Assembly (NCBI GenBank): GCA_031271345.1
Contig: JAISVX010000003.1
Span: 563,223 to 627,222 of the forward strand
From: Lactobacillaceae bacterium
GTDB taxonomy: Bacteria > Pseudomonadota > Alphaproteobacteria > RF32 > CAG-239
DNA length: 64,000 nt
Direction of reading: 5' to 3'
How positions within the stretch are numbered: position 1 is the first letter of the stretch; each line of letters starts with the position of its first letter. Below the pieces are notes generated by a model. The model ran no database searches. It was given only the letters and a program-made list of their open reading frames with translations, and was not told the origin of the DNA. Shown piece after piece: positions 39,921 to 46,557 of the stretch. Position numbers and translations under genes: made by a program.

Positions 39921-39950
39921 AAACAAAGCCTCCTTTCAGAGGCTTTGTTT
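39921..39950. terminator. Bidirectional terminator
   Basis: A perfect 12-bp stem (39921-39932 with 39939-39950, AAACAAAGCCTC/GAGGCTTTGTTT) between two convergent genes. Confidence 0.9.
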
Positions 39951-41749
39951 TACTTTCTTGAAAGTTCTTCTAATCTTTTCTTTATCAGCTCTTCATCAAA
40001 AGGCGGAACCTCTTCGGAAGCCAAACCATTTTCCAGCTTTTGCTTCACCGTCTCAACGTTCACTTCTTCAATATCCTGCTTTAGAACAAGAGCATGACGC
40101 CACTGAAAAGCCGCCTCAATTTTTCTTCCCGCCATCCAGTACGCGTCTCCCAAATGGTCGCTGATGAGAGCGTTTGCAGACTCAATCTCCGACGCGTTTT
40201 CTAAATATTCGACGGCCTTATCATACAGCCCCAACTTATACAAAGCCCAGCCCAGACTGTCTATTATATGCCCGTCATTGGGAGCCTGACTGTAGGCGTT
40301 TACAATCAGAGAAAAAGCCTCTTCAATATTAGTTCCGCGAATAATCCAGCAATAGCCGATATAATTGGTCGGAACATAATGGTTGTTGCTTAGCTCTATT
40401 GCCTTTTTTAAACTTTCCTCCGCTTTTTCCCATTCGCCGTTTCTTTCATACGCGACGCCCAAAGCATAGAAAGCCACCCAGTTTCTTGGCTGAACTTCTT
40501 TAATATTACCAATCGCTTTATTATAAAAATATATCGCTTCATCAAACTTTTTAAGCATTCTCAAATTATCCGCCAAGTCCAAAGAAACCTGATAATCATC
40601 AGAATTATCCTTAATCAAATCTCTCAACACTTTTTCAGCTTTTCCATATTCTTTCATTATTGTGTAAGCTGTGGCTTTTTTAATCTGGGCTGTATAATAT
40701 GTTTCTTTTTCCGAACCGATTTCATCATAAACTCTGACAGCGTCATCATACATTCCTCTAGCTTCCAGTATATCTGCCAAAAGCAGTTTAGCCAAATCAT
40801 AATCCTGGTTGCTGTATATTGAAAGACAGATAAATATGTGGGCTAAGTCCATGCCAATCGGACCCTGACGCAGAGTTGCGGCAATACTGAACAACGCCTC
40901 CGCCAAACCATCGTCAGCATTGGCTAAAATCTTTTTTGTATTGTCCGGGTCGGCATTTTCAACATTTATGCAAAGCCGTTGAAGCATGTCCACCATGTTT
41001 TTATCATCAGTATATCTCTTGATAAGCTCAATAGCTTTATACTGCTCGCCGTGCCTTATATAAAAATTAGAAATCAGCTGCAAAGCTCTGTACGACATAT
41101 CCATCTTTGCTTCGTCCATCAAATAGCGATAGTGTTTTTCCGCCTCTTCCTTATTATCAAAATAATCATTTATCATGCCTGCATGAAAATTATATAAAGC
41201 TGCCAGCCCTGGCTCGTTCTTTATTTTTTCCAGCTGTTTTAAAGCTTCTTCTCTTTTTCCTTCGCCAGTTTTTACCCAGGCAATCATTAAAGGGGCAATA
41301 AATTCATCATAAACAGGACCTTTAAGGTTGGAAATAGTCTTCACAGCGTCCTCATACTGCTGTTTTTTCATCTCATCCACGGCAATAATGATATAGGTAA
41401 AATTGTTATCATCCCCGGCTTTGAGTGATTCTCTGGCATATATTGCGGCTTCGGAAATTCTGCTTTCGGACGCCAATATAACATAAACTCTGCCGATAAG
41501 GTCTGCATTTGCCGGATCGTTTTTCAAGACCTCGACATAGTAATCAGCCGCAGAATTAAAATCTCTGCGCAAATGAGCCACCCTGCCGGCTAAATAATAG
41601 CCATATTTTTCATTTTTAAATGTTTCGTTTACAGCCGTAACCGAAGCGTCGCCTTTTTTGCAGTTATCATTAAAACAATCGCAGCCCGACACAGCAATAA
41701 CCGCGCATATAACGGCGGCGAACACCAAATTTATTTTAACCTTAAACAT
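39950..41749 (-). CDS. TPR-repeat lipoprotein
   Basis: A 599-residue protein with a lipoprotein signal (AVIAVSGC, Cys near residue 23) and a second Cys pair just after it (CDCFNDNC). The rest is a chain of tetratricopeptide-like helices from about residue 45 to 585, for example AGRVAHLRRDFNSAADYYVEVLKNDPANADL and ALGVAYERNGEWEKAEESLKKAIEL. Such alphaproteobacterial lipoproteins are thought to scaffold envelope complexes; no specific role can be read here. Divergent from the uracil-DNA glycosylase gene. Confidence 0.8.
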   Translation of the reverse strand: MFKVKINLVFAAVICAVIAVSGCDCFNDNCKKGDASVTAVNETFKNEKYGYYLAGRVAHLRRDFNSAADYYVEVLKNDPANADLIGRVYVILASESRISEAAIYARESLKAGDDNNFTYIIIAVDEMKKQQYEDAVKTISNLKGPVYDEFIAPLMIAWVKTGEGKREEALKQLEKIKNEPGLAALYNFHAGMINDYFDNKEEAEKHYRYLMDEAKMDMSYRALQLISNFYIRHGEQYKAIELIKRYTDDKNMVDMLQRLCINVENADPDNTKKILANADDGLAEALFSIAATLRQGPIGMDLAHIFICLSIYSNQDYDLAKLLLADILEARGMYDDAVRVYDEIGSEKETYYTAQIKKATAYTIMKEYGKAEKVLRDLIKDNSDDYQVSLDLADNLRMLKKFDEAIYFYNKAIGNIKEVQPRNWVAFYALGVAYERNGEWEKAEESLKKAIELSNNHYVPTNYIGYCWIIRGTNIEEAFSLIVNAYSQAPNDGHIIDSLGWALYKLGLYDKAVEYLENASEIESANALISDHLGDAYWMAGRKIEAAFQWRHALVLKQDIEEVNVETVKQKLENGLASEEVPPFDEELIKKRLEELSRK

Positions 41750-41871
41750 TCTGACTTAAAACCCTAACTATTTTATTTAGAACCTTTTTCAAATATAATA
41801 TAATAACTCCTTTGTGTAAATAAATGATTATTAAGCTTGCAAATAATTAGATTTAGTTTAGCTTAGAAAAC

Positions 41872-42639
41872 ATGATAAACAGCTTAGAAAACATTCTCGA
41901 ATGGTATATAGAATCCGGCGTTGATGAAACTGTCGGAGATATTCCTTTTTCTCTTGAAAAAAAAGCTGTTGAACCACAGGCAGGCGCGCCTGTGACGGCA
42001 TCTTCAAGACAAGCGACCACCAATCTTGCGCAAGCGACCATCGCGGCGCGGCAAAGCTCCCGGGAAACCGCCGAAAAAGCAAGAAACCTTGACGAATTAA
42101 AAGAATTGGTAAAATCTTTTGACGGCTGTTCGCTAAAGCTTACGGCAACCAACACTGTCTTTGGGTATGGAAGCGAAAAAGCAAAAATCATGTTTATAGG
42201 CGAAGCTCCCGGAGCAGACGAGGACAGAATTGGCAAACCATTTGTCGGACGAAGCGGGCAGCTTCTTGACAAAATGCTTGCGGCAATAGGCATAAAAAGA
42301 GAAGACTGTTTTATCAGCAATGTCTTGCCATGGAGACCGCCGGGCAACAGAACTCCTACAGACAGCGAAAAAGCCGTCTGCCTTCCTTTCTTAAAGAAGC
42401 AAATTGAACTTGTATCGCCGGAATATATCTTTATTTTAGGCGGAAGCGCGGCAAACTCGCTGTTTGATAACATGGAGCCAATATCAAAGCTGAGAGGAAG
42501 ATGGCTTGAATATAAAACGGAAAATGGAAAAATAATAAAGGTGCTGGCTAGCTTCCATCCCGCATATTTATTGAGGAACGCAGGACAAAAAGCAAAAGCT
42601 TGGTCAGATTTTTTAAGGTTGAAAAAAAATATTTGCTAA
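41872..42639 (+). CDS. Uracil-DNA glycosylase, family 4/5 type
   Basis: A 255-residue protein whose C-terminal 180 residues form a UDG domain. [24 protein letters not shown] is motif A of the family 4/5 enzymes, then [24 protein letters not shown], and the C-terminal FHPAYLLRN motif B. It excises uracil from DNA. The N-terminal 80 residues are a low-complexity Ala/Thr/Ser region typical of alphaproteobacterial members. The [4Fe-4S] cysteine pattern is not obvious beyond Cys in DGCSLK. No ribosome site is clear at the ATG. Confidence 0.88.
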
Positions 42640-42734: not shown

Positions 42735-43430
42735 ATGATCAATAATAAAAAAGTTTTTGTTGGAGCATTGGGACTAATTTTAGCTGCCGGTATCAACACA
42801 GCTAAAGCAGCAGATGACAGCGCTAAAGCCGCTGTTGTAGAAAACCCAGCTATTTTATTCAAGATTCATGACATTAAACCTGTTACCAACAGTGATGGTC
42901 AGACAACATCTTGCGACTTTGCCGTAACTTTCTTTAACCGTTCAAACGAAAATATCAATGGCGCGTCTATTGATTTAACATGGGATGACGACACTGTAAA
43001 AATTCTTTTGGATGAAGAAAAAAACAACGATAGAAGAGCTTCCTCTTCAAGAAATGCAAGTTCAACCGTAACTGCAAACATTGAGGTTCCTGCCGTGCAG
43101 GCAATGAAACAAGCTGTTGTAAGAACCAGACTTCAGTCTGACCGTTGTTTCCTGCTTATGGATGATGTAAAATTAAGAGTTAGATCATGCAACATTGCTT
43201 CTCAATCAAGAAGCGGTTCAAGAAGCGCTACAGTATGCGCAAACCTGTTCAAATTTGTTTCTCCAAACAATCAGGAATATTATCGCGAGTTTAAACCTGT
43301 TACTTTGGAAGAAGAAGCGGCTATAAAACTTCAAGAAAAAGAAAACATTAAAAAAGACATTAACGAAGAATATTCAAAAACTGTTGCCGAGTTTGAAAGA
43401 GCATCTCAATTATTAAAAGAGATTAAATAA
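42735..43430 (+). CDS. Secreted four-cysteine protein, paralogue 1
   Basis: A 231-residue protein with a signal peptide (cleavage after AKA near residue 25). The mature domain (about 38-175) has cysteines at 60, 138, 152 and 168 and strand-like stretches such as CDFAVTFFNRSNENINGASIDLTW. A Ser/Arg/Asn-rich loop lies between the first two cysteines, and the C-terminal 55 residues form a charged helix. It aligns with the next gene's product around the cysteines. No family recognised; a disulfide-bonded beta-sandwich in the periplasm is the inference. First gene of a run leading to the transglycosylase. Confidence 0.6.
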   Translation: MINNKKVFVGALGLILAAGINTAKAADDSAKAAVVENPAILFKIHDIKPVTNSDGQTTSCDFAVTFFNRSNENINGASIDLTWDDDTVKILLDEEKNNDRRASSSRNASSTVTANIEVPAVQAMKQAVVRTRLQSDRCFLLMDDVKLRVRSCNIASQSRSGSRSATVCANLFKFVSPNNQEYYREFKPVTLEEEAAIKLQEKENIKKDINEEYSKTVAEFERASQLLKEIK

Positions 43431-43440
43431 GGGATTTAAG

Positions 43441-44172
43441 ATGAAAAGGTGTTGCTTATTACTAGTATCTTTATTAGCGTTTACTTCTTTGTTTCAAGTA
43501 AAGGGCATAAATGCTCAAGTCTTTGCTGAACCTGTTTCAAACCAGCAAAATACGACAGATACAAATGCAGCGCCTTCAACATCTTCACAAACAAATCCTG
43601 GCTGGAGTACGGCAACACGCCCAACGACCAGAACTACTGTTAGAAGAAGCTCTCAAAACCTTCCCAAAGAACGCACTCCAGAACAAATAGAACAGGAAAG
43701 ACTCGATAAAATCCAAGATGCTCTTGAGAAAGAGCTTAAAATTCCTCAAACAGAACGCCCAACTTTAGACGGCGTTGTCAGAGGACACATATCTATGGAG
43801 CCAATACTTGAAGAACCTGAAGACGATAAAAAAGAAGACAGATACATATTTATCTATCTAGACAATTTCAGCGTTAGAACAACGATGTCTGGAAAAATCC
43901 TGTGCAATGTCCGCTTTATCGTGCTGTCTACCCTTGACCGCAAAATCAATAATGTAAGCGTAAGATTAAAATGGCCGGAGCTTGAAACGCCTATCAGCTT
44001 CAGCGATATTACTCCCAATGTTAACACCTATGTTAACTACACCCTGATAGGCGACGGATGCTACTCTCTTGACAAAGCTCCAAACATTATTGTCAATAGA
44101 TGCAGAGTCCGCGATTTTACTCAGAAAGAATGTGCAGACAAAATCAGATGGCTACGCAAAGCCGCTGGATAA
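43441..44172 (+). CDS. Secreted four-cysteine protein, paralogue 2
   Basis: A 243-residue protein with a signal peptide (about residues 1-25), a Ser/Thr/Asn-rich linker (30-75), a charged helix (80-100) and a C-terminal domain with cysteines at 155, 207, 221 and 231. It matches the preceding gene's product: LCNVRFIVLSTLDRKINNVSVRLKW pairs with the CDFAVTFF... stretch, and both have exactly 14 residues between the second and third cysteine. The domain order is inverted, with linker and helix before the domain here and the helix after it in paralogue 1. It lies 10 bases from the previous gene and 6 from the next. Confidence 0.6.
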   Translation: MKRCCLLLVSLLAFTSLFQVKGINAQVFAEPVSNQQNTTDTNAAPSTSSQTNPGWSTATRPTTRTTVRRSSQNLPKERTPEQIEQERLDKIQDALEKELKIPQTERPTLDGVVRGHISMEPILEEPEDDKKEDRYIFIYLDNFSVRTTMSGKILCNVRFIVLSTLDRKINNVSVRLKWPELETPISFSDITPNVNTYVNYTLIGDGCYSLDKAPNIIVNRCRVRDFTQKECADKIRWLRKAAG

Positions 44173-44178
44173 AATTCT

Positions 44179-45936
44179 GTGTTTAAGAAAAAATCATCTA
44201 GTATAGCAATTGTTGTCGCAGCCCTTATCTTAGGAACATTTAACAACGCTTATGCGGATGTTAAAAAATTAGAAATAATCGATAAAAAAGCATATAGCAA
44301 AATTCTTGATAACCTTGAAATCAGCAATAAAGATTTAAGTATATATAAAGAATTGTTTGCGGCCGTAGAAGAGGAAAGATGGGATAAAGAAGAAAAAAGG
44401 CGCGGAAAAATAGAAAACGACATTCTGCTTGGTCATGTTTTAGCGCAAAAATACATGTCGCGCTCTTATGATTCTTCGTATGAAGAATTGTTGGAATGGC
44501 TGGAAAAATATAACGATTACCCCCAATACAGCAAAATATACAGACTGGCGGTCATAAAAGGCAGCTCGGAAGAACTTCAAGAGTCTTTGTCATATTCAAA
44601 TGCAATCCCCGAAGGAACGCCCGGATATAACTGGAACTTTGAATATTTTTCCAATTTATCAAAAGAAAATCAAAAATATGTTCTAAATCTTGTAAAAAAA
44701 TTTCGCGGATACATAAATTCAGGAAAATCAAAATCGGCAAAATATATTCTTGAAAACCCAAAATTTAGAAAACTCGTGCCAAACAGAACCTGGGATTCAA
44801 TGGCGGCAACGCTTACAACCCTATATTTTACAGACAATTATGATAAATTAGCGCTCGAGTGGTCCGCAAAACCGAGAAGAAGAAGCAATGATGTAACAGC
44901 AATCTGGTTTGGAGGGCTTGCCGCATGGAGGCTCGGAGATTATAAAAAGTCCGCCGAACTTTTTGACAAGCTTGCAAGACTTGACATAAACGATGACTGG
45001 ATGATGTCCGCCGGCGGATATTGGGCATACAGGGCATATATGAAACTTAATAAGCCGGCTCTCGCTAAAGACGCTCTGGAAGAAGCGGCAAAACATAAAA
45101 GAACATTTTATGGAATTTTAGCTAATTATAAGCTGGGAATAAAATGCGATTACAATTGGGATTTTTACTCCTTCTCAGCCGACTTTTCCAATTATGAATA
45201 TATAAACCACATTTTGGCGTCTCCCGCTCTTCAAAGAGCCGTACTTCTTGCATCGATAGGGCAAGACAGACTCGCCGCGGACGAAATATACAAAGAATAC
45301 AAATCATTAGACAACATACAAAAAGAAATAACCATGTTCATTGCCGAGCAGTATGAAATGCATGGGGTCGCAATACATATTTCCAACAATCTTAAAGATG
45401 ATGACAACGACATATATTATGACTGTATAACATATCCTGTTCCAGACTGGGACAGCGGCGTCTGGCAATCCGACCAGGCTTTGGTCTTAGCCTTGGTCAA
45501 GCAAGAATCTGTTTTTCATCCGAAAGCCGTAAGCAAAAGCGGCGCTTTAGGTTTAATGCAGATAATGCCCAACACGGCTCTCTATATAAGCAACGATAAA
45601 AATATCAAACAAAATGCCGCGGCTTTATTTGATACGGAGTATAACCTCGGTATCGGACAAAAATATGTAAACTATCTCTTTGAAAAACCATACATTGAAG
45701 GGAATTTGTTTTATATGATGACGGCATACAACGCAGGACCTGGAAACTTGTTAAAATGGAAAAAGAAAACAAGGTATAAAAACGACCCTTTAATGTATAT
45801 TGAGGCAATTCCTTCCCGCGAGACACGCATATATATTGAAAGAGTTATGGCAAACTACTGGATGTATGGCTTTAGACTCGGAAAAAAAATGCCAAGTTTG
45901 GAGCAGCTTTCCAAAGACGAATGGCCGACGCTATAA
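44179..45936 (+). CDS. slt: Soluble lytic murein transglycosylase
   Basis: A 585-residue Slt-type enzyme that cuts glycan strands to form anhydromuropeptides. A signal peptide (about 1-27) is followed by a superhelical alpha domain (about 40-420). The catalytic domain has Glu443 in KQESVFHPKAVSKSG, then ALGLMQIMPNTA, and AYNAGPGN near residue 517. It starts at GTG 44179, 6 bases after the preceding stop, so the two secreted four-cysteine proteins and Slt are one operon. That coupling suggests the small proteins act on or with peptidoglycan. Confidence 0.9.
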   Translation: MFKKKSSSIAIVVAALILGTFNNAYADVKKLEIIDKKAYSKILDNLEISNKDLSIYKELFAAVEEERWDKEEKRRGKIENDILLGHVLAQKYMSRSYDSSYEELLEWLEKYNDYPQYSKIYRLAVIKGSSEELQESLSYSNAIPEGTPGYNWNFEYFSNLSKENQKYVLNLVKKFRGYINSGKSKSAKYILENPKFRKLVPNRTWDSMAATLTTLYFTDNYDKLALEWSAKPRRRSNDVTAIWFGGLAAWRLGDYKKSAELFDKLARLDINDDWMMSAGGYWAYRAYMKLNKPALAKDALEEAAKHKRTFYGILANYKLGIKCDYNWDFYSFSADFSNYEYINHILASPALQRAVLLASIGQDRLAADEIYKEYKSLDNIQKEITMFIAEQYEMHGVAIHISNNLKDDDNDIYYDCITYPVPDWDSGVWQSDQALVLALVKQESVFHPKAVSKSGALGLMQIMPNTALYISNDKNIKQNAAALFDTEYNLGIGQKYVNYLFEKPYIEGNLFYMMTAYNAGPGNLLKWKKKTRYKNDPLMYIEAIPSRETRIYIERVMANYWMYGFRLGKKMPSLEQLSKDEWPTL

Positions 45937-46104: not shown

Positions 46105-46557
46105 ATGGAAGAATTATTGAAATACGGATGTTGGGCGTTCTGCGCTATTTTTGCGATAGTTTTTATATATTATACTATTTTCCAAGGTGGAATGACCGGT
46201 ATTATCAGATTTGTTGTAAAAAACTTCTGGTGGGTTATCGGTATCATTGCAGCTTGCATTGTTTTTAGTTTCTTTCTTGGAACTTTTGACAGTGGCAAAT
46301 GGTATAATGTTGACAGCTTTGGTTTCGAAACCTTTTTCTTATGGTTTGGTCTCATCGCTGGCTTAATTATCAGCTTAGTAGTCGCCCTTTTTGGTCACAT
46401 CGTAGGTTTTCTTTTCTATTTGTTTGGAATCATTATCGTTCCAATCGCCGCTCTGTTCGGAGTGCATATTCAAATAGGAAAATTCCTCGTGTTCAGACCG
46501 AGAGTAAAGAGCTACAAGAAAGTCGATTTGTCAAGTAATTGGCTTCGATTTGCCTAA
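46105..46557 (+). CDS. Membrane protein of unknown function
   Basis: A 150-residue hydrophobic protein with about four membrane segments (roughly 8-27, 37-60, 77-97 and 100-122) and a basic C-terminal tail (VFRPRVKSYKKVDLSSNWLRFA). Trp, Phe and Gly are frequent, and no polar catalytic motif is present. No family recognised. It is a stand-alone gene with its own promoter and a following hairpin. Confidence 0.5.
   Translation: MEELLKYGCWAFCAIFAIVFIYYTIFQGGMTGIIRFVVKNFWWVIGIIAACIVFSFFLGTFDSGKWYNVDSFGFETFFLWFGLIAGLIISLVVALFGHIVGFLFYLFGIIIVPIAALFGVHIQIGKFLVFRPRVKSYKKVDLSSNWLRFA

Follow-up and report, generated by a model that had tools for sequence, protein, structure and literature searches.

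The window analysed here, a stretch of 64,000 nucleotides on contig JAISVX010000003.1 of an alphaproteobacterium placed in the order RF32 (assembly GCA_031271345.1), carries two adjacent genes for predicted secreted four-cysteine proteins, hereafter A and B, directly upstream of slt, which encodes a putative lytic transglycosylase. The A–B pair does not belong exclusively to this Slt, and has a role that persists where the enzyme is lost. On the sequence evidence, A and B are true paralogs, and B–slt is the older unit, predating the order. We tentatively propose that A and B form a periplasmic adaptor pair for lytic transglycosylases that also serves something besides this Slt, a reading that we consider quite possible, if somewhat short of probable.

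Gene Order and Distribution of A, B, and slt

Gene A (231 aa; 42735..43430), gene B (243 aa; 43441..44172), and slt (585 aa, GTG start; 44179..45936) lie on the + strand, as do all of their features given below, with gaps of 10 bases between A and B and 6 bases between B and slt, and are regarded as one operon. The assignment of A and B draws on their open reading frames (ORFs), alignments of relatives, and AlphaFold2 models, and for B also on a B-domain profile. Terminator-like sites were more frequent in the window than in shuffled sequences (9 vs. 3.3), and none of the nine falls in the gaps that separate the three genes; promoter-like sites were at shuffle level (9 vs. 10.9).

Of 153 genomes of the order that were searched, 145 have A and 143 have B. 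The window-type Slt matched 91 genomes, or 89 after exclusion of G131, where the SLT domain lies in another frame of 626 aa, and G059, which gave a short partial match. In 87 of these 89 genomes slt directly follows B, with both genes on one contig and one strand; the two exceptions are G114, in which no B was detected and slt is near a contig start, and G120, in which B and slt are on separate contigs. None of the 60 genomes of genera g3, g4, g5, g6, and g14 carries the enzyme gene, against 89 of the remaining 93. Among these 60 slt-less genomes, 54 keep both A and B and 56 keep A (the order-wide tallies for slt, A, and B – 89, 87, 60, and 54 – are hand counts from the search tables). The same arrangement appears when 68 fetched loci (12 from outside the order, 56 from within it) are mapped: in the order, A–B is present in all 56 loci with short spacing, and slt follows B in 36, the other 20 all coming from the five slt-less genera. 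In a tree built from two neighbouring genes, which encode a TPR protein and a uracil-DNA glycosylase (UDG), the slt-less genera diverge stepwise at the base, which would imply up to three losses of slt, or one if the root is misplaced.

Outside the order, B is found next to the same enzyme. The B-domain profile matched 19 of 385 genomes of the class, 5 in the window's family and 14 outside it; an earlier profile of the whole B protein had matched 9 of 289 genomes. One match (G463) was dropped as spurious (E 9e-4, internal stops), leaving 13 credible B genes, and in 12 of the 13 slt is directly downstream (six families: f4, f23, f51, f70, f74, and f91). In contrast to B, A was not found in any of five outside genomes when six chosen genomes were searched with the A profile, the only match being in G152. 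A probably joined B–slt later, as a paralog, on the branch from which this order descends, and may be common to the order and f51.

The initial annotation read the gene spacing as a single operon with slt and suggested that A and B may form a heterodimeric periplasmic regulator or targeting module for glycan cleavage, an interpretation that is partly supported. The predicted folds of the two proteins are related, and the linkage to slt in other genomes holds within the order and beyond it, but the module is not private to Slt: A and B are kept without this enzyme in 54 of the 60 genomes that lack it, and A was not detected in the five outside genomes.

One locus of f51 deserves separate mention. 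In G201, a 536-aa protein encoded between UDG and B (L149:935-2545) contains four cysteines, and its C-terminal part is long and charged. It resembles A by eye only; the B profile matched it at E 0.016, and the A profile missed it.

Paralogy, Predicted Fold, and Cysteines of A and B

The paralogy of A and B, suggested in the initial annotation, could not be settled by simple comparison: BLASTP gave no match, and hhalign of the whole proteins gave E 0.0011 with a probability of just 20.8, each too weak alone. When hhalign was restricted to the domains, the score of 25.4 was matched by none of 200 column shuffles and by 1 of 200 shuffles with the cysteines fixed. The decisive search, in one direction, was made with a profile of 16 B domains and no A sequence, run on the 1,875 ORFs of the 68 loci. 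At E<1e-3 it recovered 68 B and 42 of the 56 A proteins, the window's A at E 4.4e-8, and no other ORF. Because this profile picks up A and no unrelated ORF, the two proteins are taken to be true paralogs. In the reverse search with an A-domain profile, which is weaker, 5 of 68 B proteins passed the same threshold, others being matched only below it.

Predicted structures are in line with this relationship. AlphaFold2 models, computed from alignments of 43 A relatives and 48 B relatives, reached a mean pLDDT of 83.8 and a pTM of 0.67 for A, and 82.1 and 0.62 for B, with the sandwich mostly above 90. Both proteins are predicted to share one Ig/FN3-like beta-sandwich fold, which spans residues 40-174 in A (42852..43256; VIA-align matches cover 37-177) and residues 136-238 in B (43846..44154; matches cover 129-242). 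The common strand pattern claimed in the initial annotation is seen in the models, which both run through five strands, a short helix (Cys2), a strand (Cys3), a short helix (Cys4), and a short strand; A differs in one additional helix (86-97). The reversed placement of a helical segment is reproduced as well, with a predicted C-terminal helix in A (residues 191-230; 43305..43424) and a predicted N-terminal helix in B (residues 80-100; 43678..43740).

Among solved structures, Escherichia coli IrmA (5ek5) stands out. With Foldseek, it was the best match of A (E 5.3e-4, probability 1.00); B had no match at E 1e-3, and IrmA ranked 19 (E 0.038, probability 0.95). With VIA-align, it was the top match of both A (Z 9.1, rmsd 3.6, 110 aligned residues; next row Z 6.8) and B (Z 7.9, rmsd 4.0, 104 aligned; next row Z 6.2), although this program warns that a Z under 8 may reflect merely a common arrangement. 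SadB of Salmonella (PDB 4c47), a lipoprotein called trimeric in the title of its paper that helps an autotransporter, also contains a sandwich and was among the next matches, but with weak scores (Z 6.7 for A and 5.7 for B), level with unrelated rows. As judged from these models, the fold of A and B is common, and their function is not deducible from it.

Four cysteines are invariant in each protein (52 of 52 A relatives and 50 of 50 B relatives), so that the resemblance first noted between A and B in this respect goes beyond chance. In A they are Cys 60, 138, 152, and 168 (codons at 42912, 43146, 43188, and 43236; stretch 42912..43238), and in B Cys 155, 207, 221, and 231 (codons at 43903, 44059, 44101, and 44131; stretch 43903..44133). 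They occupy matching sites in the two models: Cys1 lies early in strand 2, Cys2 in the short helix that follows strand 5, Cys3 close to where strand 6 ends, and Cys4 in the final short helix. The spacing of Cys2 and Cys3 needs correction: 13 residues, not the 14 first reported, intervene in both proteins (an offset of 14 positions). A signal peptide, read by eye at each N-terminus, predicts that A and B are exported; two more cysteines of B, Cys 4 and 5, are inside its N-terminal hydrophobic stretch. The four invariant cysteines could form two disulfides per protein if they are oxidized.

Two variations of A were also observed. The residue preceding Cys2 (residue 137; window 43143-43145) is Arg in 33 of the 36 slt-bearing and in 0 of the 20 slt-less order genomes, and may merely mark a clade. 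In genus g9 (L198, L199, and L200), A measures 412 to 460 aa and carries a long low-complexity tail at its C-terminus.

A and B match no described family in the collections searched. In Pfam, no match above cut-off was obtained for either protein, including the 16 B domains and 43 A proteins; NCBIfam had no model above cut-off for A or B, and PHROGs gave no match at E 0.01. Sub-threshold Pfam matches were rejected because they were below cut-off, both for A (ubinuclein and origin recognition complex models) and for B (New_glue and two others). Sequence matches in the PDB to caspase-6, FAM155A, calreticulin, ATP synthase b, mL45, and chitinase were likewise rejected (E 0.085 or worse). B, the one protein of the two searched for on plasmids, was absent from those searched. 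Named records with an A relative (10 loci) are of uncultured proteobacteria, mostly titled Alphaproteobacteria, some of them ruminant-derived.

Slt and Other Lytic Transglycosylases

The product of slt is assigned by its sequence to the lytic transglycosylases of the SLT family. Its SLT domain (PF01464; residues 429-535, 45463..45783) scores 84.8 bits against a cut-off of 21.3 (E 4.3e-24), and Glu 443 lies in an ES motif; we take this residue to be the catalytic Glu. Of 48 slt frames, 47 carry a [RK]QES motif; the 48 include two pieces of one broken gene. In one locus of f91 (L231, genome G351), slt is split between overlapping frames of 156 aa and 414 aa, either because the gene is broken or because of an error in the sequence. 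The window's enzyme shares the SLT domain and the ES-motif Glu with E. coli Slt and Caulobacter SdpA, but scores 99.3 bits with the E. coli-type Slt model, below the NCBIfam equivalog cut-off of 536.

More generally, a Pfam SLT domain is present in 146 of the 153 order genomes. Of the 60 that lack the window-type Slt, 7 gave no match to the domain, one gave a strong match (G131, E 1.3e-23), and the others gave weak ones (E 1.8e-5 to 4e-11). Besides this Slt, the window's own genome encodes another SLT protein, of 216 aa, which passes the cut-off. Our guess is that such a second SLT-type protein is a client of the A–B pair where the window-type Slt has been lost.

Genomic Setting

The window has a GC content of 39% and comes from a genome of 1.50 Mb in 5 contigs. 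Upstream of A, a divergent gene pair (39950-42639) is conserved in the order and provides context only: a gene for a TPR protein on the - strand (39950..41749; Pfam, gene order) and, directly upstream of A, a UDG family gene on the + strand (41872..42639; PF03167, gene order). The UDG gene is upstream in 55 of the 56 mapped order loci, the contig of L224 ending there. In f4 the divergent pair precedes B–slt, and UDG stands upstream of B–slt in both f4 and f51. Where f23, f74, and f91 were examined, the neighbours of B–slt are instead homologs of murC or muramoyltetrapeptide carboxypeptidase, some recognized by eye; of four such neighbours that were scored, one murC (f74) passes its cut-off and three are below theirs.

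Downstream of slt, window positions 46105-46557 encode a hydrophobic 150-aa protein with no Pfam match at E 0.01. A small membrane protein is also encoded 3' of B in g6 (L145) and, by eye, in g4 (L140), and is followed there by tolQ (above cut-off in L145) and then by a tolR-like gene (below cut-off).

Proposed Role of the A–B Pair

In the adaptor mechanism that we favor, B would be the older, enzyme-facing subunit and would touch Slt, while A would be a paralog of the same domain with an added C-terminal helix that would oligomerise or anchor it. A would pair with B, probably through the related sandwiches, and the complex might hold or stimulate Slt at sites of glycan cutting, stimulation being the presumed direction of the effect. 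In the slt-less genera, A–B would have a different use, perhaps with some other murein enzyme; the retention of the pair there points to one or more additional clients or tasks. What was observed behind this proposal is the gene order, the paralogy, the invariant cysteines, the linkage of B to slt, and the persistence of the pair without Slt. The tightness of the B–slt linkage, the short A–B spacing, the near-universal presence of A and B in the order, and their paralogy with the same predicted fold all count in its favor, as do the murC and muramoyltetrapeptide carboxypeptidase homologs found near B–slt where UDG is absent.

A precedent also counts in its favor: DipM is reported to bind and stimulate SdpA, a soluble lytic transglycosylase of Caulobacter (PMC10336132). 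The likeness would be one of proposed role only, that of a non-enzymatic partner of an alphaproteobacterial Slt. DipM has a LytM domain, whereas A and B are predicted Ig-like sandwiches, an unrelated fold, and no LytM/M23 domain (of the DipM or EnvC type) was matched in A or B in Pfam or NCBIfam at E up to 1.

Several observations weigh against this proposal. The five slt-less genera mostly retain both proteins, as described above, and one credible outside B gene, that of G434 (L227, f74), has no slt in the 11 kb fetched. DsbB gave no match in the window's own genome (G000) at E up to 1, in a search that, as a control, detected it in 7 of 14 known genomes, and the disulfides of A and B are therefore uncertain. 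Residues 202-222 of B are mostly kept in g3, g5, g6, and g14 despite the absence of slt, so that this stretch need not face Slt. Nor did B show a general relaxation after slt loss, which is therefore not used here as support. When branch lengths, taken from a fixed tree, were compared for 5 genera without slt and 10 with it, which are not independent of one another, the ratio B/A differed (p 0.007), but A/UDG (p 0.18) and B/UDG (p 0.76) did not. Separately, in the B proteins of g4, 8 of the 25 positions conserved in slt-bearing genomes, including W178 and D211, are replaced in all six sequences, while the four cysteines stay.

Other explanations account for parts of these data. A and B might be structural or glycan-binding envelope proteins that stand beside Slt without contact and share an operon with it through their common layer. 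The retention of the pair in the 54 slt-less genomes fits this idea, as do the carbohydrate-binding and glycosidase N-terminal domains among the structure matches (Z about 5-6, a common level); we nonetheless judge it rather unlikely, since B is linked to slt in at least eight families, more tightly than a loosely shared function would require, and no known sugar-binding family was matched in the Pfam searches. Small periplasmic inhibitors of lysozyme such as Ivy and MliC offer another model, in which B, with or without A, would restrain lytic transglycosylases as an inhibitor or safety catch. A small, exported, cysteine-rich protein encoded just 5' of the enzyme is what such a model expects, and it amounts to the adaptor proposal with its sign reversed, the direction of the effect having been presumed. 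It appears improbable to us, because no inhibitor family was matched in Pfam and A–B is kept where Slt is gone, although most such genomes have another SLT-domain protein. Lysozyme-inhibitor folds were not among the structure matches listed for A and B, which by itself excludes nothing.

The linkage could also reflect the inertia of small, slowly rearranged genomes, with A and B having nothing to do with murein. The conservation in the order of the whole TPR–UDG–A–B stretch, including genes without a murein role, speaks for this, but B stays with slt in f23, f74, and f91 despite a different upstream gene, and we give this explanation as little chance as the inhibitor one. Finally, A and B might be released to act on a host or on competitors, in the manner of IrmA, a secreted FN3-like domain-swapped dimer that binds interleukins and has two cysteines in one disulfide, as described in PMC5810482 and PMC10269718. 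VIA-align ranks IrmA first for both proteins; it is exported and has an FN3-like sandwich, as is predicted for A and B, and some relatives come from ruminant metagenomes, according to record titles. This we regard as very improbable. Function can hardly be read from a shared Ig-like fold, and no IrmA chain appeared among the profile matches of A and B to solved structures up to E 10, a result that leaves room for distant homology. IrmA also differs in having two cysteines, against four invariant ones in each of A and B, which have extra helices and slt adjacent. In addition, a pair that is near-universal in an order and tied to a murein enzyme is unlike a typical host-interaction gene.

Significance

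Lytic transglycosylases need both aiming and restraint, and few dedicated partners are known for them. Accessory proteins of these enzymes have been described, but, as far as we have seen, not with the fold and pairing of A and B at this place; no account of the A–B pair was found in the open-licence literature, which is weak evidence. If the adaptor proposal holds, A–B might even represent a new class of murein-hydrolase regulators, an Ig-fold heterodimer derived by duplication of an older one-subunit Slt partner, which in these small-genome Alphaproteobacteria would be the counterpart of the LytM-type activators of other bacteria and would have been retained for other clients where Slt was lost; this broader idea is speculative, and we consider it unlikely at present. 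Natural experiments are provided by the genomes where B–slt occurs and A was not detected, and by the genera that have A–B but not this slt, so that the pair, a candidate new protein family, could be used to test whether murein-cutting enzymes require partners with an Ig fold.

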